A stretch of DNA of 64,000 bases from Crossiella equi (GTDB taxonomy: Bacteria; Actinomycetota; Actinomycetes; Mycobacteriales; Pseudonocardiaceae). Location: positions 6,681,786 to 6,745,785 of the forward strand of contig NZ_JAGIOO010000001.1 in NCBI RefSeq assembly GCF_017876755.1. The letters run 5' to 3'. A program made the position numbers and the translations under genes. The notes below the pieces were generated by a model, which was given only the letters and a program-made list of their open reading frames with translations, did not search any database and was not told the origin of the DNA. Positions 33,986-46,472 of this stretch are shown here, one piece after another (the first letter of the stretch is position 1; each line of letters opens with the position of its first letter).

Positions 33986-34717
33986 GTGACGTTCACGCTG
34001 CTCCCGGCCGTTGACGTGGTCGACGGCAAGGCCGTGCGCCTGCACCAGGGCGAGGCCGGTACCGAGACCTCCTACGGCACCCCCCTGGACGCCGCGCTCT
34101 CCTGGCAGGAGGGCGGCGCGGAGTGGCTGCACCTCGTCGACCTGGACGCCGCCTTCGGGCGGGGCGGCAACCGCGAGCTCATCGCCGAGGTGGTCGGGCG
34201 TGTGGACCTCAAGGTCGAGCTGTCCGGCGGCATCCGCGACGACGCCTCTCTCAAGGCCGCCCTGGCCACCGGCTGCGCCCGGGTCAACCTGGGCACCGCC
34301 GCGCTGGAGAACCCGGAGTGGTGCGCCCGCGCCATCGCCGAGCACGGCGAGAAGATCGCGGTCGGCCTGGACGTGCGCATCACCGACGGCGAGTACCGCG
34401 TGGCCACCCGGGGCTGGGTCCAGGACGGCGGCGACCTGTGGGAGGTGCTGGAGCGGCTGGACCGCGACGGCTGCCCGCGCTACGTGGTCACCGACGTCAG
34501 CAAGGACGGCACGCTGACCGGGCCGAACACCGACCTGCTGCGCGAGGTGTGCGAGGTCACCGAGGCGCCGGTGATCGCCTCCGGCGGGGTGTCCAGCGTG
34601 GCCGACCTCATCGCGCTGGCCGAGCTCGCCCAGTACGGCGTGGAGGGCGCGATCGTCGGGAAGGCGCTCTACGCCGGGGCGTTCACGCTGCCCGAGGCGC
34701 TGAGCGCGGTCCGCTAG
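33986..34717 (+). CDS. priA: Bifunctional HisA/TrpF isomerase PriA
   Basis: A 243-residue (beta-alpha)8 barrel with catalytic Asp in [20 protein letters not shown] and Asp in [16 protein letters not shown], and phosphate loops LSGGIRDD and IASGGVSS. In actinobacteria this enzyme isomerises both ProFAR (histidine pathway) and phosphoribosyl-anthranilate (tryptophan pathway). That fits the trp cluster of this window, which has no trpF. The GTG lies 9 bp downstream of hisH; its stop overlaps the stop of the convergent membrane-protein gene by 3 bp. Confidence 0.95.
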
Positions 34718-35124
34718 GCCAGGGCGAGCACGCCGAAGACCACCAGCCCGGCCACCTTCGCGCACTCCAGCGCGATGTAGACCAGGTGCGCGTGCGAGCG
34801 CGGACCCTCCGCACCCGCCAGCACCGCCTCCGATCGCCGGTTCAGCCGCGGTCGCACCACGGCCAGCTGCACCACCAGCACCACCCCGACGACCGCCAGC
34901 GCGACCCAGCTGGCGGTCGTCGGGGTGCCCAGCCACACCAGCACGAGCACCGCCGCCGCCAGCACGCACTCCAGCGCGTTCAACGCGCGGAACACCAGGC
35001 GTCCGATGCCCAGGCCCAGCGGGAGCGTGATGCCCGGGGCGCGGAACTTCAGCGGCGCCTCCACGAACGAGATCGCCAGCACCATGCCCAGCCAGGTGAA
35101 GGCGAGCGCCGCCGCCGCGCTCAC
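34714..35124 (-). CDS. Four-helix membrane protein of unknown function
   Basis: 136 residues from a GTG at 35124 that overlaps the stop of the upstream PPOX gene. Predicted helices at about 1-20, 45-65, 70-90 and 115-135; the conserved-looking segment [20 protein letters not shown] lies after the first helix. I do not recognise a named family. Coupled translation with a flavin/F420 protein suggests a shared role, but nothing shows what it is. Confidence 0.75.
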
Positions 35125-35483
35125 ACGTCGATCCGGATCGCGACCGTGCGGCCCTCGTGCGGCTTGGCCCGCAGCGTGGTCAGCGGGCCCAGCAGCCAGA
35201 ACTTGCGGTTGATCATGCGCACCACCCGGGCCGTGCCGTCGGTGTCCAGCAGGGTGGCGCTCGCCTCGACCGTCTCGCCGGTGGGCGTGCCGCGCACCGT
35301 GCACGGCGCGACCGTCACCCGCGAGGTGTGGCGCAGCCGCTTGACCTTGCCCGCGGTGGCGTTGCTCCAGGCGTAGAGCGCGTCCTCGTCGGCGACGACC
35401 CAGACCGGCGTGGCCACCGGGGTGCCGTCCTTGCGGAAGGTGGTGAGCAGGATGTACTTGGCCGACCTCAGCTCGCTGGTCAC
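35121..35483 (-). CDS. PPOX-class F420/flavin-binding split-barrel protein
   Basis: A 120-residue split beta-barrel of the pyridoxamine-5'-phosphate-oxidase-like class: YILLTTFRKDGTPVATPVWV, LYAWSNATAGKVKRLRH and VTVAPCTVRGTP match the short actinobacterial members that bind F420 or flavins. Substrate unknown. The GTG start lies 7 nt after a -10 formed by the other strand of the palindrome AGCCTAGGCT, so it appears leaderless and divergent from hisF. Confidence 0.87.
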   Translation of the reverse strand: MTSELRSAKYILLTTFRKDGTPVATPVWVVADEDALYAWSNATAGKVKRLRHTSRVTVAPCTVRGTPTGETVEASATLLDTDGTARVVRMINRKFWLLGPLTTLRAKPHEGRTVAIRIDV

Positions 35484-35490
35484 GCGGCCC

Positions 35491-35500
35491 AGCCTAGGCT
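35491..35500. promoter_or_regulatory. Palindromic shared -10 of divergent leaderless promoters (hisF and the PPOX gene)
   Basis: AGCCTAGGCT is a perfect palindrome giving TAGGCT on both strands. On the plus strand it is 6 nt before the hisF ATG (35507); on the minus strand it is 7 nt before the PPOX GTG (35483). Polymerases starting in the two directions would use the same base pairs and so exclude each other. Confidence 0.6.
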
Positions 35501-35506
35501 GTGGGC

Positions 35507-36280
35507 ATGTCCGTCGCTGTTCGTGTGATCCCCTGCCTGGACGTCGACCGCGGTCGCGTCGTCAAGGGGGTCAACTTCACCAACCTCGTCGATGCCGGTG
35601 ACCCCGTCGCCCTGGCCACCGCCTACGACGCCGAGCACGCCGACGAGCTCACCTTCCTCGACGTCACCGCCTCCTCCGGCAACCGCGAGACCACCTACGA
35701 CGTGGTGCGGCGCACCGCCGAGCAGGTGTTCATCCCGCTCACCGTCGGCGGCGGCGTGCGCGCGGTGGAAGACGTGGACAAGCTGCTGCGCGCCGGTGCG
35801 GACAAGGTCGGCTTCAACACCGCCGCCATCGCCCGGCCAGAGCTGCTGCGCGAGGCCAGCGAGCGCTTCGGCGCGCAATGCGTGGTGCTGTCCGTGGACG
35901 CCCGGCGCGTGCCCGAAGGCGGCAAGCCGACCCCGTCCGGGTTCGAGGTCACCACGCACGGCGGCCGCCGGGGCACCGGGATCGACGCCGTCGAGTGGGC
36001 CGCGCGCGGCCAGGAGCTCGGGGTCGGCGAGATCCTGCTCAACTCCATGGACGCCGACGGCACCAAGGCCGGGTTCGACCTGGAGCTGATCCGCCTGGTG
36101 CGCGGGGTGGTCGACGTGCCGCTCATCGCCAGCGGCGGCGCGGGCGCGGTCGAGCACTTCGCCCCGGCGGTGGCGGCGGGTGCCGACGCGGTGCTCGCGG
36201 CCAGCGTGTTCCACTTCGGCACGCTGCGCATCGGCGAGGTCAAGGACGCGCTGCGGCAGGCGGGGGTGGAGGTCCGATGA
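35507..36280 (+). CDS. hisF: Imidazole glycerol phosphate synthase, cyclase subunit HisF
   Basis: A 257-residue (beta-alpha)8 barrel, beginning [20 protein letters not shown] with catalytic Asp11, and carrying [23 protein letters not shown] and the second Asp in [15 protein letters not shown], then [12 protein letters not shown]. It joins with HisH to make imidazole glycerol phosphate and AICAR. The ATG at 35507 is preferred over a GTG at 35501 because it lies at the expected leaderless start. hisI overlaps its stop. Confidence 0.96.
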
Positions 36281-36627
36281 GCGCACTGGACCCGGCGGTC
36301 GCCGCCCGGCTCAAGCGCAACGCCGACGGCCTGGTGTGCGCGGTGGCGCAGCAGCGCGGCACCGGCGAGGTGCTCATGGTGGCCTGGATGGACGACGAGG
36401 CCCTGCACCGCACCCTCACCACCCGCAAGGCCACCTACTTCTCCCGCAGCCGCCAGAGCTACTGGGTCAAGGGCGAGACCTCCGGACACACCCAGCACGT
36501 GCACGAGGTGCGCCTGGACTGCGACGGCGACACGCTGCTGCTCGTGGTCGACCAGGTCGGCGCCGCCTGCCACACCGGCGAGCGCACCTGCTTCGACGCG
36601 GACGTGCTGCTCGCGGCCGAGGACTGA
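36277..36627 (+). CDS. hisI: Phosphoribosyl-AMP cyclohydrolase HisI
   Basis: 116-residue zinc/magnesium hydrolase opening the adenine ring of PR-AMP. Diagnostic sequence is [56 protein letters not shown] and GERTCF, which include the zinc cysteines and Mg-binding DxDxD-like residues. The ATG overlaps the hisF stop. A HisE (PR-ATP pyrophosphatase) domain is not fused, as is usual in actinobacteria. Confidence 0.95.
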
Positions 36628-36663: not shown

Positions 36664-39600
36664 TCAGGCGGTCACGGCCAGGCGCTGCTGCGCGGCCGGG
36701 TTGCCCGCCCAGTCCGCACCCGGCGGCACCTGCTCGCCCTTCATCAGGAACGCGTCCGCGGCCAGCCGCGAGCCCGCGCCCATGACCACGCCGTAGTGCA
36801 CGAAGGCGCCCACCCCGACCACGCACCCGTTGCCGAGGGTGATGCGGTCGGACTTGAACGTGCCGTCCTCCAGCGAGTGCCCCTGCACGGTGCTGCCCAT
36901 GTTGAGCACCACGTCATCGCCCAGGGTCACCAGGCTCTTCTCCGGTGCCGAACAGCCGTCGTCGTAGAGCCGCCTGCCCACGCTCGCCCCGAGCAGGCGC
37001 CACAGCAGGCCCTTGTACGGCGTGCCGTTGAACAGCCGCAGGAACGTGCCCGGGGACAGCTTCCAGTACCGCTCGTGCTGCCAGAAGGGGCGCTGGTAGA
37101 TCGAGCACAGCCGGGGCCGCAGGCGGCGGAAGCCCAGGCTGCACCGCTCCACCAGCACGAACCACCCCGTGGTGAACAGCACGGCGGCCAGCGAGCCCAC
37201 GACCACCCCGATCTGGCCGTAGTGCAACCGCAGGGACAGCACGGCCAGCCCGAGCAGGCTCAGCCCGGCCAGGTGCACCCACAGCACGAACAGGTACAGC
37301 AGCGCGGTCACCAGGTTGTGCCGGTTCTTGCGCGGCAGCCTGCGCCGCACCTCCTCCTCGGAGCGCAGGTGGTCGAAGCGCCGGTCCCGGTCCACCGAGC
37401 GCGGGATCTCGAACGGCGGCGAGCCCAGCAGCCCGGTGTCCGAGCGCACCGGCCCGGACACCGGCACATGCACCTTCGTGGCGAGCAGGCAGTTGTCCCC
37501 GGTACGCGAGCGCCACGGGTAGAACACGTTGTTGCCCAGGAAGTTGTGCTCGCCGAGCACGGCCTGCCGGGCGCTGAAGGAGGTGCTGGTGAACTCCACG
37601 TTCATCGTGGACAGACCGTCGGAGACCATGGTGCCGCGGCCGACCCGGGTCAGGTACGGGGACTCGTGCTTCTGCAGCACGCCGAAGTTCGAGCCGGACT
37701 GGATCACCCGGCCCAGGTCGTAGCCCAGCGCGGACAGGAACGGCACGATCGCCGAGCTGTCGCCGAAGAGCGTGTGGAAGAAGCGCAGGTTCGTCAGCCG
37801 GGCCACCGTGCGCTGCACCGAGTACCGCAGCCCGTACAGCGGGTAGACCACACCGGGCCGCACCGCGCGGTTGAGCAGCCGGGGCAGCAGGAGCACCAGG
37901 AGCAGCCCGACGGGCACCGCGCAGGCGAACACCAGCGCGGTCCAGCCGAGGTGCCCCAGCAGGTAGGTCGGGCTGCCCAGCGGGTCGGCCGGGGTCGGCA
38001 GCAGCGAGGGCACCCACACGTCCAGCACGAGCAGCGTCAGCGGCAGCGTGCCCAGCAGCAGCACCGCCAGCTGTGCACAGGAGTAGGCCAGCCGCCGCGC
38101 CCGCCCGCAGCGCGCCGCCTCGACCTCGGGGTGGTCCCACTCCGCCGGTTCGGCCGGGCTGCCGTACCAGTGCTCACCCGGCGGCACCGACTGCCCGGTG
38201 TGCAGCGAGGAGGCGTGGCCGAGGCGGCTGCCGTCGCCCAGCTCGGTGCCGATGTCCAGCACCGTGCCCTCGCTGACCACCACCCCGGCGCCCAGCGTGA
38301 CGGGCCCGGTCTCGACCACCCCGGCCCCGGCGCGGTGGCAGGCGAACCAGACGTCCTTGCGCACCACCGTGCCCGCGCCGATGGTCAGCAGGTCCGGGCA
38401 GGAGGGCACGTTGCGGGAGAACACCACGGCGCCCGCGCCGATCCGCGCGCCGAGCAGCCGCAGGTAGGCGGTGTAGACCGGGGAACCCGCGAACAGCACC
38501 AGCGGGTTGGCCCTGGTGAGTGTGCGCACCAGCCAGAACCGGAAGTAGGCCAGGCCCCACAGCGGGATCGTGGTGGGCCGCCACCGGCCGACCAGCAGCC
38601 ACTTCAGCAGCACCGGGGCGAGGCAGAGCACCGTGAACGCGCCGCCGGTGAAGACCACCGCGCGCGGGTAGGCCGCGAGGGGGCCGGGCGCGGCGTCGAC
38701 GTAGTCCAGGCCCACGGTGAACACCAGCACGTTGAGGTAGGTGTAGCCCAGGAACAACAGCGTCTGCGCCAGCCCGCACAGCAGGTAGCGCAGCGAGCCC
38801 GCCCGCGGCGGCGGCTCCGGTGCCGGTGCCATGACGGGCGCCTCCGGCCGGGCCGTGGCCAGGTGCTCGGCCAGGCGGCCCACCGTGGGGTGCAGGTAGA
38901 CCTCCCGCATGGACACCGGCGGCAAGCCCGGCAGCGCCGCCACCCGGGCCCGGAACCGGGCCAGCAGCAAGGAGTCCGCGCCCAGGTCGTCGAAGAAGTG
39001 GTGCGCGGTGGACACCTCGGCCAGGCCGAGCACCTCGCCCAGTGCCTCGGCCAGGCGGCACTCGGTCTCCGTCACCGGCGCCACGTGCCCGCCCGGGGCC
39101 GCCACGCGGCGGCCACTGGGCGCGGGCAGCCGGGCCCGGTCGGCCTTGGTGGCGGTGGTCATCGGGATCTCGGCCAGCCGTTCCAGGTAGGCGGGCACCA
39201 TGTAGCCGGGCAGGTGGCGGCGCAGGTGCGCCACCAGCTCCGCCTCCGCCACCTCCTCCCGCGCCCGGTAGTAGGCCACCAGCTCGGTGCCGCCGCCGTC
39301 CGGGCTGTGCGTGCCCACCACCGCCTGGGCCACCCCGGGCGCCCGCAGCAGCACGGCCTCGACCTCGGCCGTCTCGATCCGGTAGCCGCGCACCTTCACC
39401 TGCGTGTCGATGCGGCCGTGGTACTCGACCTCGCCGTCCTCGGTGATCCGGCCGAGGTCACCGGTGCGGTAGATCCGCCCGGACGGGTTGTCCGGCAGGC
39501 CGAGGAAGTCCGGGACGAACGCGCGCTCGGTGAGGTCGGGGCGATTGAGGTACCCGGCCGCCAGCCCGATCCCGGCGATGCCGATCTCCCCGGCGGCACC

Positions 39601-40674
39601 GGGCGGCAGCGCGCGCGGCGAGTCGGGGTCCAGCACCACCACCGAGTAGGAGGGCAGCGGCACGCCCAGCGTCACCGGCCGGTCCGGGGCCAGCACCGAC
39701 CAGGTCGCGGTGACCGTGGCCTCGGTGGGGCCGTAGACGTTGAGGAAGCGCCTGCCGGGCCGGTGCCAGCGGGTGACCAGGTCCGCCGGGCAGGCCTCCC
39801 CGGAGACGAGCAGGAACCGCAGGCCCGGCAGGTCCTCGTCCACCGTGGCCAGCAGCGTCGGCACGCAGCACAGCGCGGTGACCTCCCGCGCGAGCAGGAA
39901 CTCGCGCAGCTCCGCGCCCAGCAGCGGCGCCCCGTCGGGCTTGGGCACCAGGGTGGCCCCGGCCAGCCACGGCACCCACGTCTCCTCCACCGAGAAGTCG
40001 AAGGCCAGCGTCATGCCCTGGTACACGCGGTCGCCCCGGGCCAGGCCGTAGACCTGAGCGGCGACGCGGACGAAGTTGCAGATGGCCGCGTGCTCGATCG
40101 CCACCCCCTTGGGCGTGCCCGTGGTGCCGGAGGTGTAGATCAGGTAGCAGAGGCCGTCCACCGGCTCGCCCGCCTCGGCCGGGGTGAGCCTGCTCCCGTC
40201 CTCCCGCGTGGTGTCGAACTCGTCCAGGCACAGCAGCTCGGTGGGCAGATCGTCCACATCGGACACCAGGTCCAGGGTGGTGCGGAGGGTCAGCACGCGG
40301 CGCACGTCCGCGTCGCGCAGGATGTGGGCCAGCCGCGCGGTCGGGAAGCCGACGTCCAGCGGCACGTAGGCCGCGTTCAGCTTGAGCACCGCCAGCATGG
40401 CCGCGTACGCGTGCGGCGGCCGGTCCAGCAGCAGCCCGACCCGGTCACCCGCCCGCACCCCCAGTGCGCGCAGGCGGCGCGCCAGCCGGTTCGCCCGGGT
40501 GTCCAGCTCGTCGTAGCCGATCTCCTCGGCACCGGTGTCCACCGCGACCGCCCCGCCCCGGGCGCGCAGCTCGTCGCAGCGCCGCTCGAACAGGCGGTGC
40601 AGCCGCTCGCCCGGCCGGGTCCGCACCGCGGGCGCGGGACCGGTCAGCACGCCCTGGGCGTGCCCGGTCAGCAC
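36664..40674 (-). CDS. Pls-type membrane NRPS: homopoly(amino acid) synthetase (A-T-six TM-three tandem C-terminal domains)
   Basis: 1336 residues, close to the 1319 of Streptomyces albulus epsilon-poly-lysine synthetase. An adenylation domain spans about 25-520 ([11 protein letters not shown] at 180-190, [17 protein letters not shown], Lys510); a thiolation domain spans about 540-605 with Ser568 (LGADSLL). Three pairs of membrane helices (about 630-656/672-696, 866-892/908-934, 1120-1150/1154-1176) enclose three related soluble domains (about 700-860, 945-1118, 1185-1335) rich in hexapeptide-type turns. This is the Pls architecture that repeatedly links one amino acid and exports it. By-eye pocket code is D226 F227 E230 T273 L289 S291 V313 V321 T322 K510. 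GTG 40674 lies 8 nt after GGGAG and overlaps the aminotransferase gene. Confidence 0.92.
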
Positions 40675-42038
40675 GGGGCACACTCCCGCAGCGCCGCGCC
40701 CAGGATGTCGGCGGCCCGCTCGATGATCGAGGCGGTCACGGTCAGCGGCGGCAGCAGGCGCACCACCGCGTCCTGCCGCCCGCCCAGCTCCACGATCAGC
40801 CCGCGCCGCAGCGCCTGCGCCTGCACCGCCAGCGCCAGCTCGCCCGCGGGCCTGCCACTGCCGGGCTCGGCCAGCTCCACCCCCCACATCAGCCCGCGCC
40901 CGCGCACCTCGTGCACCCACGGGTGCCGGGCCAGCTCGCCCAGCAGGGCGCCGAGCTGCTCACCGCGCGCCCGCACGTTGGCCAGCACGCCGTCCCGGCG
41001 CACCACGCGCACCGCCGCGACGCCCGCGGCGAAGGCCGCCTGGTTGCCCCGGAAGGTCCCGGTGTGCGCCCCGGGCTCCCACACGTCCAGCCGCCGGTCG
41101 TAGAAGATCATCGCGACCGGGGCGCCGACCCCGCTGAGCGCCTTGGAGGCGATGACCACGTCCGGCTCGATGTCGTACTGCTCGAAGGCGAACCAGGTGC
41201 CGGTGCGGCCGCAGCCGGTCTGCACCTCGTCGACCACCAGCGGGATGTCCAGCTCCCGGGTCAGCGTCCGCACCCGGCGCACGAACGCCGGGGTCGCGGG
41301 CACCACCCCGCCCTCGCCCTGCACCAGCTCCATGACCACCGCCGCCGGGCGCGGCACCCCGCCGTTGCCGTCGCGCAGCGCCCGTTCCAGGTACCCGGCG
41401 CAGTTGGTCTCGCAGGTGAGTGGCGACAGGCCGACCGGGCAGCGCGCGCAGTAGGAGTAGGGGAAGAAGTGCACCCCCGGCACCCCGCCGGGCACCGGCT
41501 CCTTCTGCGCGACCAGGCCGGTCAGCGCCATCGCCGCGTGGCTGCACCCGTGGTAGCCGCCCTGGAAGGAGACCACCTCCGCGCGACCGGTCGCGGTCTT
41601 GCACAGCTTCAGGGCGGCCTCGACCGCGTTCGCCCCGGTCGGACCGCAGAAGTGCGCCTTCATCCGGTCCCGCATGCCCTCGGGCAGCATGGACAGCTGG
41701 GCGGTGAGGAACTCGTCCTTGGCCGGGGTGGGGAAGTCCAGGCCGTGGGTGAGCATCGAGAGCTGCTCGGTCATCGCCTGCACCAGCTCGGGGTGGTTGT
41801 GCCCGAGGGAGAGCACGCCCGCACCCGCCAGGAAGTCCAGGAAGGTGTTGCCGTCGGCGTCGCGCAGGTAGCAGCCCCGGCCCTCCACCGGCGCGATCGG
41901 CAGCCGCCTCGGGTAGGTGCGCGCGTTGGACTCGCGCTGCTCCTGCCGCGCGAGCAGCTCGGCCGACCGCGGCCCGGGCAGCGCGCCCCGCACCACCGGT
42001 CCGCCCAGCTCCGTCAGATCCGTGTCCGTGTCCGTCAT
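40668..42038 (-). CDS. Diaminobutyrate-2-oxoglutarate aminotransferase family (class III PLP enzyme)
   Basis: 456 residues. Class III aminotransferase with Asp270 ([13 protein letters not shown]) and Schiff-base Lys299 ([12 protein letters not shown]), plus [20 protein letters not shown] and [17 protein letters not shown]. The cysteine-rich [17 protein letters not shown] insert is of the type seen in 2,4-diaminobutyrate aminotransferases, which make L-2,4-diaminobutyrate from aspartate semialdehyde and glutamate. The ATG overlaps the stop of the upstream gene (ATGA) behind GGGAGGGG, and its own 3' end overlaps the synthetase, so precursor supply and polymerisation are co-translated. EctB-like or other omega-aminotransferase activity cannot be excluded. 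Confidence 0.87.
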
Positions 42039-42859
42039 CGCCCCTCCCGGGCCTGGTGGGCGCTGCCCCAGCGGGCGGCGCGGGTCGGTCCGGAACAGCT
42101 CAGGATGCGGCGGCCGGGCCGGGCCCAGCGCCGCACCAGCGAGGTGGGCAGCGGCGCCCCGTGCACCAGCACGCAGCGCACCGTGGCCGGGACGCCGGTC
42201 AGGGCCCTCAGCTGGGCGTCCGCCCCGCAGAGCACCGTCACCCGCTGGCCCGCGAGCTGCCCGTCCAGGTCGTCCTCCCCGCCCGGGGCCACCACGGTCG
42301 CCCCGGCCGCGAAGCACGGCCACACCTCGTACAGGTGGTGCTCCAGCGTCAGCGGGGTGCCCTGGTAGACCCGGTCGCCCTCGGCCAGGCCGAAGCCCGG
42401 GGCGGCCACCCGCAGGAAGGCCAGCACGTCCTGGTGGGTGAACACGCGGTTGGCGGTGTGGCAGCACGGCGCGGCCGGGTCCACGGCCACGGCCGGGCCC
42501 GTCTCCGGGCCGCCCGGCTCGCCCGGTCCCGCCTCGTCGGCGAGCACCGCGGTCAGGCCGGTCGTGGGCGCCCCGCCGGGCAGCACGCGGTAGGCCGCGC
42601 CCGCCTTGAGCACGCCCAGCAGCGCCACGTACTCGGGCAGGCCCCGGGGCAGCCGCACCCCCACCACCCCGCCCGGCCCGGCACCCGCCGCGTGCAGGCG
42701 CCACGCCAGCCGGTTCGCCCGGCGGTCCAGTTCGCGGTAGCCCAGCACGGCGGCGCCGTGCACCACCGCCGGGGCCTCCGGAATTCGGCGGGCGGTGCGT
42801 TCGAAGTGCTGCAATAGTGTACGCGCGCGTGGCGCGTCAGAATCTGAATTGATGTCCAT
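42035..42859 (-). CDS. Truncated, degenerate adenylation-domain protein
   Basis: 274 residues that align with the first two thirds of the downstream synthetase's A domain: [63 protein letters not shown] and [12 protein letters not shown]. The ATP-binding [11 protein letters not shown] loop is replaced by [15 protein letters not shown], the GPTE motif by GPTRAA, and the protein ends before the TGD and lysine motifs, so it should not adenylate. Yet it has no frameshift or internal stop and is translationally coupled to the aminotransferase. It may be a decaying copy or a structural partner. ATG 42859 has only a weak ribosome binding site. Confidence 0.8.
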
Positions 42860-43009
42860 GTCCCATGCCGATGTCGTTGGGAAAGCGAATTCCTGGGGAC
42901 GCGTCGGAACGAACGTATTCGGACTCGATGGGAAATGTCCATGGTTTCAGAACACGCAGGACGGCCGCAGCGAATGATTCACTGCGGCCGTCCGGGGTAT
43001 CGCGATGGA
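42860..43009 (-). promoter_or_regulatory. Probable promoter region of the polymer-synthetase operon
   Basis: About 100 AT-enriched bases lie between the regulator's terminator (42959-42993) and the first operon gene. The terminator implies that the operon has its own promoter here. I looked for the StrR-type GTTCG...CGAAC dyad and found only a lone CGAAC half-site, so no operator is assigned. Confidence 0.45.
42959..42993 (-). terminator. Terminator of the StrR-like regulator gene
   Basis: GGACGGCCGCAG (42959-42970) pairs perfectly with CTGCGGCCGTCC (42982-42993), loop 11 nt, 16 bp after the regulator stop. Confidence 0.85.
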
Positions 43010-44023
43010 CTACGCGGAGGAGCACTTCCTCCGCTCGACGCGCTCGGCGAAGCCGTACCAGGCGGCCGCGGTGCTGCGCGCGAGCGCCGCGACGATGTCG
43101 CCGCAGTGCGCGGGCACGTTCTCGGCCAGCTCAGCCCACCCGGACGCGTCGGGCGCGTGGGCGTCCAGCCAGCGCAGCAGCGTCCGGCCGGACTCGGTGA
43201 AGCGCAGCGCGGGGTCGTGCTTGAGCGTGTTCAGCGCCGCGACCGGGTTGAACCGGCCGTCCACGGTGCGGCCAGGTCCGTTCCCGTGCCTGCCCGCGGG
43301 CACCGGGTCCAGCCCCGAGCTGAGCCGGCGCCGCACGTCACGCACGGTCGACGGGGACAGCCCCGCCACCCGGGCCACCTCGCGCAGCGAGGCCCTCGGG
43401 TTGTCCGCGAGCAGGGCGCCCGCCAGCAGCCTGCCCGGGGTGCTGTTCACCGGCCGCACCTTGCCGTCCCGGCCCACCCGGGCGTTCGACCAGGCATTCT
43501 GCACAGTTGAACGCCGACGGATGGCCCCCACCGTCCGGGGGGCCAGCCCGGTCGCCTCGGCGATCATGCGGTCCGACCACTCCGGCCTGCGGTAGACGAT
43601 CCGTGCCGCGGCGGCGGTGCGGTCGGCCAGGGACAGCGGCATGCCGTGGGCGATGTTGGCGTGCACCCCCAGGATGTACGCGCTGTCCGCGTCCCCGTCG
43701 TAGTAGCGGACCTGGATCTGCCGCTGTCCCCGCAGACGCGCGGCCCGCAGCCGGTGCATGCCGTCGATGACGCGCATGCTCGGCCGGTGCACGGTGATCG
43801 GCGGCAGCGGTGTGCCCGCCCCGGCGAGGACCCGTGCGTGCTCGTCGACCTCCCCGGCCAGCCGGGGCGAGTCGGCGGGCAGCAGCTCGCTGATCTCGAC
43901 CGTTTCCACCCGCCCGGTCAGCTGGCGGCTCCACCAGTCCGCCGGTCCTGCTCCGCCTCGGTCGCCTTCGGCATCACCCGCCTCGTCCCCCGACATCGGT
44001 TCACGGTAATTCTCGACTATCAC
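43010..44023 (-). CDS. StrR-like cluster-situated transcriptional regulator (ParB-fold N-terminus plus HTH)
   Basis: 337 residues. The first third has the ParB/StrR fold: VEISELLPADSPRLAGEVDE, VLAGAGTPLPPITVHRPSMR, VIDGMHRLRAARLRG and VHANIAHGMPLSLADRTAAA. A helix-turn-helix follows (SDRMIAEATGLAPRTVGAIRR), with a second one near SLREVARVAGLSPSTVRDVR. StrR, NovG and related proteins with this layout activate antibiotic gene clusters. GTG 44023 is chosen because GGGAGG lies 7 nt upstream; an ATG at 43996 lacks a site. The position, upstream of and co-directional with the synthetase operon, makes it the likely activator. Confidence 0.9.
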   Translation of the reverse strand: MIVENYREPMSGDEAGDAEGDRGGAGPADWWSRQLTGRVETVEISELLPADSPRLAGEVDEHARVLAGAGTPLPPITVHRPSMRVIDGMHRLRAARLRGQRQIQVRYYDGDADSAYILGVHANIAHGMPLSLADRTAAAARIVYRRPEWSDRMIAEATGLAPRTVGAIRRRSTVQNAWSNARVGRDGKVRPVNSTPGRLLAGALLADNPRASLREVARVAGLSPSTVRDVRRRLSSGLDPVPAGRHGNGPGRTVDGRFNPVAALNTLKHDPALRFTESGRTLLRWLDAHAPDASGWAELAENVPAHCGDIVAALARSTAAAWYGFAERVERRKCSSA

Positions 44024-44270: not shown

Positions 44271-44891
44271 TCACACGGGCGCGGCCGTACCCACGTCGCC
44301 GGTCAGGTAGTGCTGGAGGTTCGGCCCGACCGCGGCGACCACCGAGTCGATGTCCAGGGAGGCCAGCGGCTCCAGCCTGATCACGTAGCGCATCATGCCC
44401 AGCCCGGCGATCTGCGAGCCGACCAGCCCGGCGCGCAGTGCGGGCTGGTCCAGGCCCGCCGACTGGGCGATGCGGCCGAACACCGCGTGCGCGATGAGCT
44501 CGCGCAGCATCGCCGCGGCCTCCTCGTTGCTGGACGCACTGCGCATCAGCGCCACCATCGGCCCGCCGCCCGCCTGGTCCCACACCGTGACGAAGCGGTG
44601 CACGATCCGCGCGCCCAGCTCCTCCACCGGGCCGGGCAGCACGAAGTCCAGGATCTGCTCCGGGGTGACCGGCAACCGCACCGCGGCGGCGAAGAGGTTG
44701 TCCTTGCCGCCGAACCAGTGGTTGACCATGGCCGGGTCGACGTTGGCCCGGGCGGCGATCATGCGGACCGTCGCGCCGTCGAAGCCCTGCTCGGTGAACA
44801 CCGCGCGGGCGGCGTCGAGCAGCGCGGTCTTCGTGTCCTCCCCGGCGGGGCGGCGTCCTCGTCGTCTGGGTGCGGTTTCGGCCACCGGCAC
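44271..44891 (-). CDS. TetR-family transcriptional regulator
   Basis: About 206 residues. The N-terminal helix-turn-helix reads [20 protein letters not shown] and [20 protein letters not shown], preceded by a basic RRRGRRP tail. The C-terminal domain ([20 protein letters not shown]) resembles the TetR_C_17-type group common in actinobacteria. GTG 44891 or 44885 could be the start; neither has a ribosome binding site. Divergent from trpE with a 33-bp gap, but a role in tryptophan control is not shown. Confidence 0.87.
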
Positions 44892-44911
44892 ATCATCGCG
44901 CACCCACCCGG

Positions 44912-44917
44912 CACAAT
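44912..44917 (+). promoter_or_regulatory. -10 element of a leaderless trpE promoter
   Basis: CACAAT, 7 nt before the ATG at 44925, matches the spacing of the other leaderless starts in the window. There is no room for a leader-peptide attenuator. Confidence 0.45.
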
Positions 44918-44924
44918 GTCCCGC

Positions 44925-46472
44925 ATGGTCAGCACCACGGTCAGCGCCCCCCGCCCCGCCGCCTCGGCGATGGGCGAGATCAGTCCGAACCGGGAGGAGT
45001 TCCGCGAGCTCGCCCGCTCCCGCCGGGTCATCCCGGTCGTGCGCAGGCTCCTCGCCGACGGAGAGACCCCGCTCGGCGTGTACCGCAAGCTGGCCGCGAA
45101 CACCCCCGGCACGTTCCTGTTCGAGTCCGCCGAGAACGGGCGCTCCTGGTCCCGCTGGTCGTTCGTGGGCGTGCGCAGCCCCGCCGCGCTCACCGTGCGC
45201 GACGGCGAGGCCGTGTGGACCGGCACCCCGCCGGTGGGCATGCCCGCAGGCGGCGACCCGCTCGTCGCGCTGCGCGACACCGTGGCCGCGCTGCACACCG
45301 ACCCGCTGCCCGGTCTGCCGCCACTGACCGGGGGCATGGTCGGCTACCTCGGCTACGACAGCGTCCGCCGCCTGGAGCGCCTGCCGTCCCTGGCCGCCGC
45401 CGACATCGACATCCCCGAGCTGGTCATGCTGCTGGCCACCGACCTGGCCGCGCTGGACCACCACGAGGGCGTCATCACGCTCATCGCGAACGCGGTGAAC
45501 TGGGACGACACCGACGAGCGGGTGGACGCCGCCTACGACGACGCGGTGCGCCGCCTGGACGCGATGACCGCCGACCTGTGCACCGCCGCCGCGCCCACCG
45601 CCGCGGTGTTCCAGCGCCCGCAGCCGCGTTTCGACCGGCAGCGCACCAGCGAGGACTACCGCGCCGCGGTGGAGACCGCCAAGGAGGCCATCCGCGCGGG
45701 CGAGGCCTTCCAGATCGTGGTCTCGCAGCGGTTCGAGGTGGACACCGAGGCCGACGCCCTGGACGTCTACCGCGTGCTGCGCACCACCAACCCCAGCCCG
45801 TACATGTACCTGCTGCGGCTGGACGGGTTCGACATCGTGGGATCCAGCCCTGAGGCCCTGGTCACAGTGCGCGACGGCAAGGTGACCACCCACCCCATCG
45901 CGGGCACCCGGTGGCGCGGGGCCGACGACGAGGAGGACGCGCTGCTGGCCAAGGACCTGCTCAGCGACGAGAAGGAGCGCGCCGAGCACCTGATGCTCGT
46001 CGACCTGGCCCGCAACGACCTGGGCCGGGTCAGCGTGCCGGGCTCGGTCAACGTGGTCGACTTCTTCAGCGTCGAGCGGTACAGCCACGTCATGCACATC
46101 GTGTCCGCGGTGACCGGTGAGCTGGCCCCGGGCCGCACCGCCTTCGACGCGGTCACCGCCTGCTTCCCGGCGGGCACCCTGTCGGGGGCGCCGAAACCGC
46201 GCGCGATGGAGCTGATCGAGACCCTGGAACCGTCGCGGCGGGCGCTCTACGGCGGTGTGGTGGGCTACCTGGACTTCGCCGGGGACGCCGACACCGCGAT
46301 CGCCATCCGCACCGCGCTGATGAAGGACGGGCGGGCCTACGTGCAGGCGGGCGCGGGCGTGGTCGCCGACTCCGACCCGGCCGCCGAGGACACCGAGTGC
46401 CTGAACAAGGCGCGTGCGGTGCTCGCCGCGATCGCCACCGCCGAGACCCTGGAGCTGGCCAGTGACCGCTGA
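44925..46472 (+). CDS. trpE: Anthranilate synthase component I TrpE
   Basis: 515 residues. Chorismate-utilising domain with [96 protein letters not shown] and [20 protein letters not shown], and the N-terminal feedback-binding region ([19 protein letters not shown]). Makes anthranilate from chorismate with a separate TrpG. An in-frame ATG at 44916 is possible; 44925 fits a leaderless transcript. First gene of the trp operon. Confidence 0.95.

Follow-up and report, generated by a model that had tools for sequence, protein, structure and literature searches.

A four-gene locus of Crossiella equi with a Pls/PosA-family synthetase, predicted to make poly-L-2,4-diaminobutyrate and lacking a linked aspartate kinase

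A block of four genes, all on the minus strand at 36664–44023 of a 64-kb stretch of DNA from Crossiella equi (Pseudonocardiaceae), very likely directs the synthesis of a cationic homopolymer of L-2,4-diaminobutyrate (Dab), namely gamma-poly-L-Dab, as judged from its sequence. The stretch, referred to here as the window, is G000:C1:6681786-6745785, and genome G000 is a single contig of 9.44 Mb. The gene order is regulator-smallA-dat-synthetase, and the features of the locus are as follows.

43010..44023, minus strand: StrR-like cluster regulator, 337 aa from GTG 44023, with a helix-turn-helix (HTH) in its second half (HTH Pfam models)
43484..43512, no strand assigned: predicted StrR-type box GTTCGACTG-N11-CAGTCGAAC, 3 mismatches in 18 positions, inside the regulator gene
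42959..42993, minus strand: GC-rich hairpin with 12-bp arms, a perfect inverted repeat just past the regulator stop
42035..42859, minus strand: smallA, 274 aa, N-terminal core of a Pls-type adenylation domain without catalytic motifs (AMP-binding, 96.2 bits)
40668..42038, minus strand: dat, predicted L-2,4-diaminobutyrate:2-oxoglutarate transaminase, 456 aa (TIGR00709, tree)
36664..40674, minus strand: Pls/PosA-family homopoly(amino acid) synthetase, 1336 aa, A-T-TM2-C1-TM2-C2-TM2-C3, where TM is transmembrane (TIGR02353, domains, pocket DFECLSVVTK, model)

The first-pass annotation had described a StrR-like regulator followed by three overlapping genes, and all four were located where it had placed them. 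The overlap between smallA and dat was read directly as 4 nt (ATGA); that between dat and the synthetase gene is 7 nt (GTGCTGA), given a synthetase start at GTG 40674, and GTG 40683 is the other possible start. The regulator has an alternative open start upstream, GTG 44236.

The synthetase scored 673.5 bits against TIGR02353 ('Pls/PosA family'), above the cut-off of 423.1. Profile searches revealed one AMP-binding, one AMP-binding_C and one PP-binding domain together with a hexapeptide match, and no condensation (C) or thioesterase (TE) domain was found in the domain scans. Six TM peaks were seen in the hydropathy profile (residues 638-656, 672-690, 866-884, 912-930, 1128-1146 and 1157-1175). 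In the AlphaFold model of residues 529-1336 (predicted local distance difference test, pLDDT, 88.3; predicted template modelling score, pTM, 0.89; 33-row alignment), long helices in three pairs, six in total, alternate with three domains of short strands. These tandem domains are mutually related, with a BLAST E of 7e-18 for C1/C3 and hhalign probabilities of 99.2 for C1/C2, 99.8 for C1/C3 and 97.4 for C2/C3; the top Foldseek matches of the model in the PDB were hexapeptide acyltransferases, which covered a small part of it (best E 3e-5). Profiles, hydropathy, model and BLAST/hhalign therefore agree with the earlier description of a 1336-aa protein with one A domain, one T domain, six helices and three related domains. 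The architecture, A-T-6TM-C1-C2-C3, is shared with the delta-poly-L-ornithine synthetase PosA and with epsilon-poly-L-lysine synthetase (Pls), the type to which the protein had been assigned and to which the TIGR02353 match also assigns it. An ordinary nonribosomal peptide synthetase module was set aside on account of the lack of C and TE domains, the six TM segments and the TIGR02353 match.

To read the substrate-binding pocket, the conserved motifs were placed on GrsA numbering. The pocket is formed by D226, F227, E230, C269, L289, S291, V313, V321, T322 and K510 (DFECLSVVTK), and the acidic Glu230 to which the first-pass annotation had pointed is indeed its third residue. Pocket position 2 is Phe in synthetases of poly-Dab and of poly-2,3-diaminopropionate (poly-Dap), Met in PosA and Ala in Pls, and Glu is conserved at position 3 in these synthetases (PMC10522769). 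The window synthetase has Asp, Phe and Glu at positions 1-3, as the rule for the poly-Dab/poly-Dap subgroup demands, and by these residues its pocket is assigned to that group. It differs in this from Pls (Ala, for Lys) and PosA (Met, for Orn), and a poly-lysine or poly-ornithine product was set aside on the strength of the Phe; also, no peptidase is present among the four genes. Of 38 rows compared, 31 have the exact pocket (L009 and L084 represent one gene; neither L136 nor L018, a match without an A domain, is in the set), among them 19 of 20 distinct dat-linked rows, with L082 deviating at one residue.

The transaminase scored 438.8 bits against TIGR00709 (dat; cut-off 401.6) and 361.7 bits against TIGR02407 (EctB), below the cut-off of 552.2, and an EctB/ectoine identity was set aside on this basis. 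The genome has an EctB-type gene of its own elsewhere (L135, 564.3 bits on the EctB model). A quick tree of 28 rows placed the window transaminase in a 21-row clade of dats from synthetase loci of other genera (Shimodaira-Hasegawa approximate likelihood-ratio test, SH-aLRT, 100; genome G080 is counted twice). The clade excludes a second dat of genome G000 (L107, 48%), the EctB-type gene of that genome (L108/L135) and three transaminases that are more distant. Among solved structures, the closest ones bear the name diaminobutyrate transaminase. The enzyme had been called a diaminobutyrate-type aminotransferase, and the two models and the tree uphold this; the clustering with ectoine-type enzymes that had been named as evidence against it did not occur.

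Pairing of dat with a synthetase gene is also found beyond the genus. The comparison set comprised the 20 highest-scoring synthetase matches in the family outside the genus, and 16 of these loci carry a dat 69-75% identical to that of the window (truncated by the contig end in L089). An aspartate kinase gene (ask) is located beside dat in all 16, although the L088 kinase shows just 35% identity over 297 residues. L010 (Streptomyces niphimycinicus) and L136 (genome G440) bring the distinct loci beyond the genus whose dat is 65% identical or more to 18; a kinase was present in all 18, and three gene orders were seen among them. This constant pairing of dat and kinase amounts to an aspartate-to-Dab route at these loci and counts for poly-Dab. 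In the A-domain tree, a quick tree, the synthetases of the window and of two congeners join 11 synthetases of dat and ask loci in a 14-row fork with an SH-aLRT of 82, which lies below the program's 95 mark. The synthetase-dat-ask locus L136 (4393-10708) resembles the window in its dat (65% identical) and ask (66% over 255 aa), but its synthetase is only 37% identical to that of the window, as if the synthetase had been swapped while the precursor genes stayed. Its pocket was read by eye as DFECLSAVT(K), and its A domain gave the best score outside the genus against the smallA model.

EctB-like transaminases were also found near such synthetases. In L021 (7796-10496; a Micrococcus metagenome-assembled genome) a Pls-type A domain is near one that passes the EctB model, and in L092 (7958-13272; G008) a synthetase is near one placed by the tree. 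These enzymes could possibly represent a second route of Dab supply, and we count them in favour of a Dab polymer.

The first-pass annotation had proposed a poly-diaminobutyrate rather than poly-lysine, and the Pls/PosA model, the pocket Phe, the dat model and the dat tree all support this. In the proposed pathway, aspartate semialdehyde would be supplied through the housekeeping aspartate kinase (G000:C1:4608835-4610094), the sole kinase detected, and would be converted with glutamate to L-Dab by the transaminase. The A domain would then adenylate L-Dab and the T domain would carry it as a thioester. Its repeated joining would fall to the three hexapeptide-type domains set among the membrane helices and, on the model of known members, would run through the side-chain amine. 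The repeat unit of the polymer would be 100.06 Da, as proposed earlier.

Several points weigh against this product. An identical pocket is found in L011-L016 and L020, synthetases for which the stored flanks gave no dat; the pocket therefore cannot choose Dab over Dap and was rejected as proof of Dab. The A-domain comparison was made among sequences that do not include the characterised PldA (WP_110952768), PddA (WP_083959783) and poly-Dap (EXU85975.1) synthetases, whose accessions are given in PMC8117764. Lastly, the usual aspartate kinase was not found at the window locus nor at the congener loci L043 and L044 (0 of 3). A kinase query at E <= 1e-20, a threshold that could miss a kinase as divergent as that of L088, gave one match each in G000, G003 and G004; each of the nine remaining genomes of the 12 searched gave two or three. 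Congeners G001 and G002 have no synthetase and yet two kinase matches each, which shows that possession of a second kinase is not restricted to polymer makers. On this sequence evidence a linked, dedicated aspartate kinase is usual, though not necessarily essential, at poly-Dab loci, and the locus described here is without it.

Two other products were weighed. The first is a polymer of L-2,3-diaminopropionate, with the transaminase feeding another pathway; the pocket common to synthetases without a nearby dat fits this, and a poly-Dap A domain is known to activate Dab too, more weakly (PMC4668381). We regard poly-Dap as improbable, since dat overlaps the synthetase gene and the pair is kept in the window and in both congeners with the locus, since the pairing is seen beyond the genus as well, at 18 loci with several gene orders, and since no Dap-forming gene is among the four locus genes (the rest of the genome was not searched for Dap genes). 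The second is gamma-poly-D-Dab, as in Streptoalloteichus hindustanus; in its favour, that species probably belongs, like the host, to the Pseudonocardiaceae. A D-polymer was set aside as highly improbable: PddB of that species is a DapF homologue coupled to pddA (PMC8225329), whereas the loci yielded no DapF-like racemase (an E 0.81 match only, and a PddB-like racemase might escape the DapF model), and the single DapF-model match in genome G000 makes the L-polymer likelier than the D-polymer.

Other arrangements of Pls-family genes were seen during the comparison. In L014 (2396-16132; Pseudonocardia sp. OFTM335) there are three consecutive Pls-family synthetase genes, each with the pocket DFECLSVVTK, the third being cut off where the stored sequence of L014 ends. 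L012, L013, L015, L016 and L020, mostly from Streptomyces, carry Dab/Dap-type synthetases with no dat in the stored flanks, and several have a common conserved neighbourhood. In family genomes (e.g. L073 and L074), at least 43 matches cover the synthetase only from about residue 508 onward; at least 28 of these are in open frames of 1072 aa or less and one has an internal TGA. Frames of this length leave no room for a full A domain in addition, and stand-alone T-C1-C2-C3 halves thus seem common in the family.

The product class is already known, because loci for poly-L-Dab (pldA-dat-ask of Streptomyces celluloflavus, PMC8117764) and poly-D-Dab (pddABCD of Streptoalloteichus hindustanus, PMC8225329) have been published. 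The window locus shares with pldA-dat-ask a Pls-family synthetase and a linked dat, with the same inferred precursor route and product, but it has no linked kinase, one kinase match in the genome, the additional smallA and StrR-like regulator genes, and the order regulator-smallA-dat-synthetase. With pddABCD it shares synthetase and dat; however, no PddB-like racemase and no dedicated aspartate kinase were found, either at the window locus or in the genome-wide searches. New here, at the level of sequence, are the kinase-less arrangement, the conserved smallA without catalytic motifs, and the StrR-type box inside the regulator gene in all three species with the block. Only a small number of cationic homopolymer synthetases have been tied to a product, and the determinants of substrate choice and chain length are unclear. 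The locus likely adds a Dab-type example with another gene arrangement, one that lacks the kinase present in its relatives, and its conserved accessory protein smallA could be a handle on polymer yield, length and specificity.

That smallA is without the motifs of a working adenylation domain was a point absent from the first-pass annotation. Genome G000 has 140 AMP-binding matches, and smallA matched this model with 96.2 bits in two pieces. Aligned to the synthetase, smallA of the window has a deletion in place of the A3 loop, and the G004/G003 proteins have RPRGLAG(I/V)PAT there; in all three species the Asp235 position is Glu, the A5 Glu has become Arg, and the protein ends just past A5. 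It therefore lacks what a functional A domain requires, i.e. the A3 phosphate loop, Asp235, the A5 Glu and A6-A10 with Lys517, and is apparently catalytically dead. The changes common to the three species suggest that activity was lost before the species split; those in A3 differ.

The gene has a narrow distribution. It is present in 3 of 5 genomes of the genus, the window included (2 of 4 congeners). A search of 200 family genomes at E 1e-35 found it in these same three. In a listing for 394 genomes of the class at E 1e-30, from which G003 and G004 are absent, the matches listed besides that of the window lie in frames of at least 1129 aa, except for one 450-aa frame at a contig end (G588). 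A quick tree places smallA among the A domains of Pls/PosA type (49 rows, SH-aLRT 98), and its exact parent is unsure because of its long branch (1.62). Its best PDB match was the A domain of PosA (E 6.2e-19), with an unrelated A domain nearly equal (8.3e-19), a near tie that says little about parentage.

We think it somewhat less than an even chance that smallA is a decaying leftover of an older synthetase, retained only through translational coupling to dat. It directly precedes dat with the ATGA overlap, at a place where L136 has a full synthetase, and the sequences most closely related to it are synthetase A domains. Conservation between the window and the congeners is lower for it than for the other three proteins, its A3 region varies between species, and its Nei-Gojobori dN/dS for the window against G003/G004 is the highest (0.64-0.70, compared with 0.42-0.44 for the regulator, 0.36 for dat and 0.51-0.52 for the synthetase). 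Against decay, three species have the gene as an uninterrupted, co-linear frame, and all of them share the Asp235 change, the A5 change and the C-terminal end. Between G003 and G004 its dN/dS is 0.30 (regulator 0.26, dat 0.06, synthetase 0.22), and third positions hold an excess of the differences both for G003-G004 (17 of 27, p 0.0015) and for window-G004 (95 of 231, p 0.008). Its fold was predicted with confidence (AlphaFold pLDDT 87.4), from a 31-row alignment that contained 28 other, intact A domains. These data are modest evidence that smallA is under purifying selection, in a comparison of three species of which two (G003 and G004) are very close.

The smallA protein is probably a non-catalytic partner, or an aid to assembly or translation. 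More specifically, and tentatively, it may be a dedicated pseudo-enzyme, a folded Pls-derived A-domain core which has lost its ATP chemistry and binds the transaminase, the T domain or the synthetase A domain, so as to replace or compensate for something, e.g. precursor supply, that the kinase provides in the sister loci. To judge by the literature searched, no non-catalytic partner of a homopoly(amino acid) synthetase is known so far, and smallA, if this reading holds, would be the first; our search found no earlier mention of such an A-domain-like gene, nor of inactive A domains, at these loci.

The regulator exceeded HTH Pfam cut-offs (HTH_23, 29.8 against 24.6), and a homologue 67% identical is found at the same place in two congeners. 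StrR-type regulators have a ParB-like N-terminal domain; no Pfam ParB-type match was obtained at E up to 5, and the comparison with the PDB gave no significant match. The consensus bound by StrR is GTTCGActG-N11-CagTcGAAc (PMC8306873). When up to 3 mismatches are allowed, the box is the sole match in the 64 kb of the window (expected 0.03), and the G003 and G004 loci have one match each, also inside the regulator gene (expected 0.02-0.03). A further 43 loci, 793,264 bases in all, gave 0 matches, with a chance expectation there that is also below 1, and the three boxes are not independent because they are homologous and within coding sequence. The locus thus has both an HTH and a predicted consensus site. 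The StrR-like regulator probably activates the block. The hairpin at 42959-42993 has no clear T run and is perhaps a terminator. A different hairpin occurs at the same place past the regulator stop in G003/G004, and the regulator may therefore be its own transcription unit.

Comparison of the window with G001-G004 showed that smallA moves together with the block. In congeners G001 and G002, which are without the block, two genes (about 600 and 177-201 aa) directly adjoin the TetR/trpE region, and in G003 and G004 the four genes lie between the second of those two genes and TetR/trpE. These two flanking genes gave no match in the 64 kb of the window at E 1e-10. Here the block comes after hisI, between his genes (33986-36627), presumably hisA, hisF and hisI, and what we take to be TetR and trpE genes (44292-46472). 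Such primary-metabolism surroundings seem an unusual site for a biosynthetic block.

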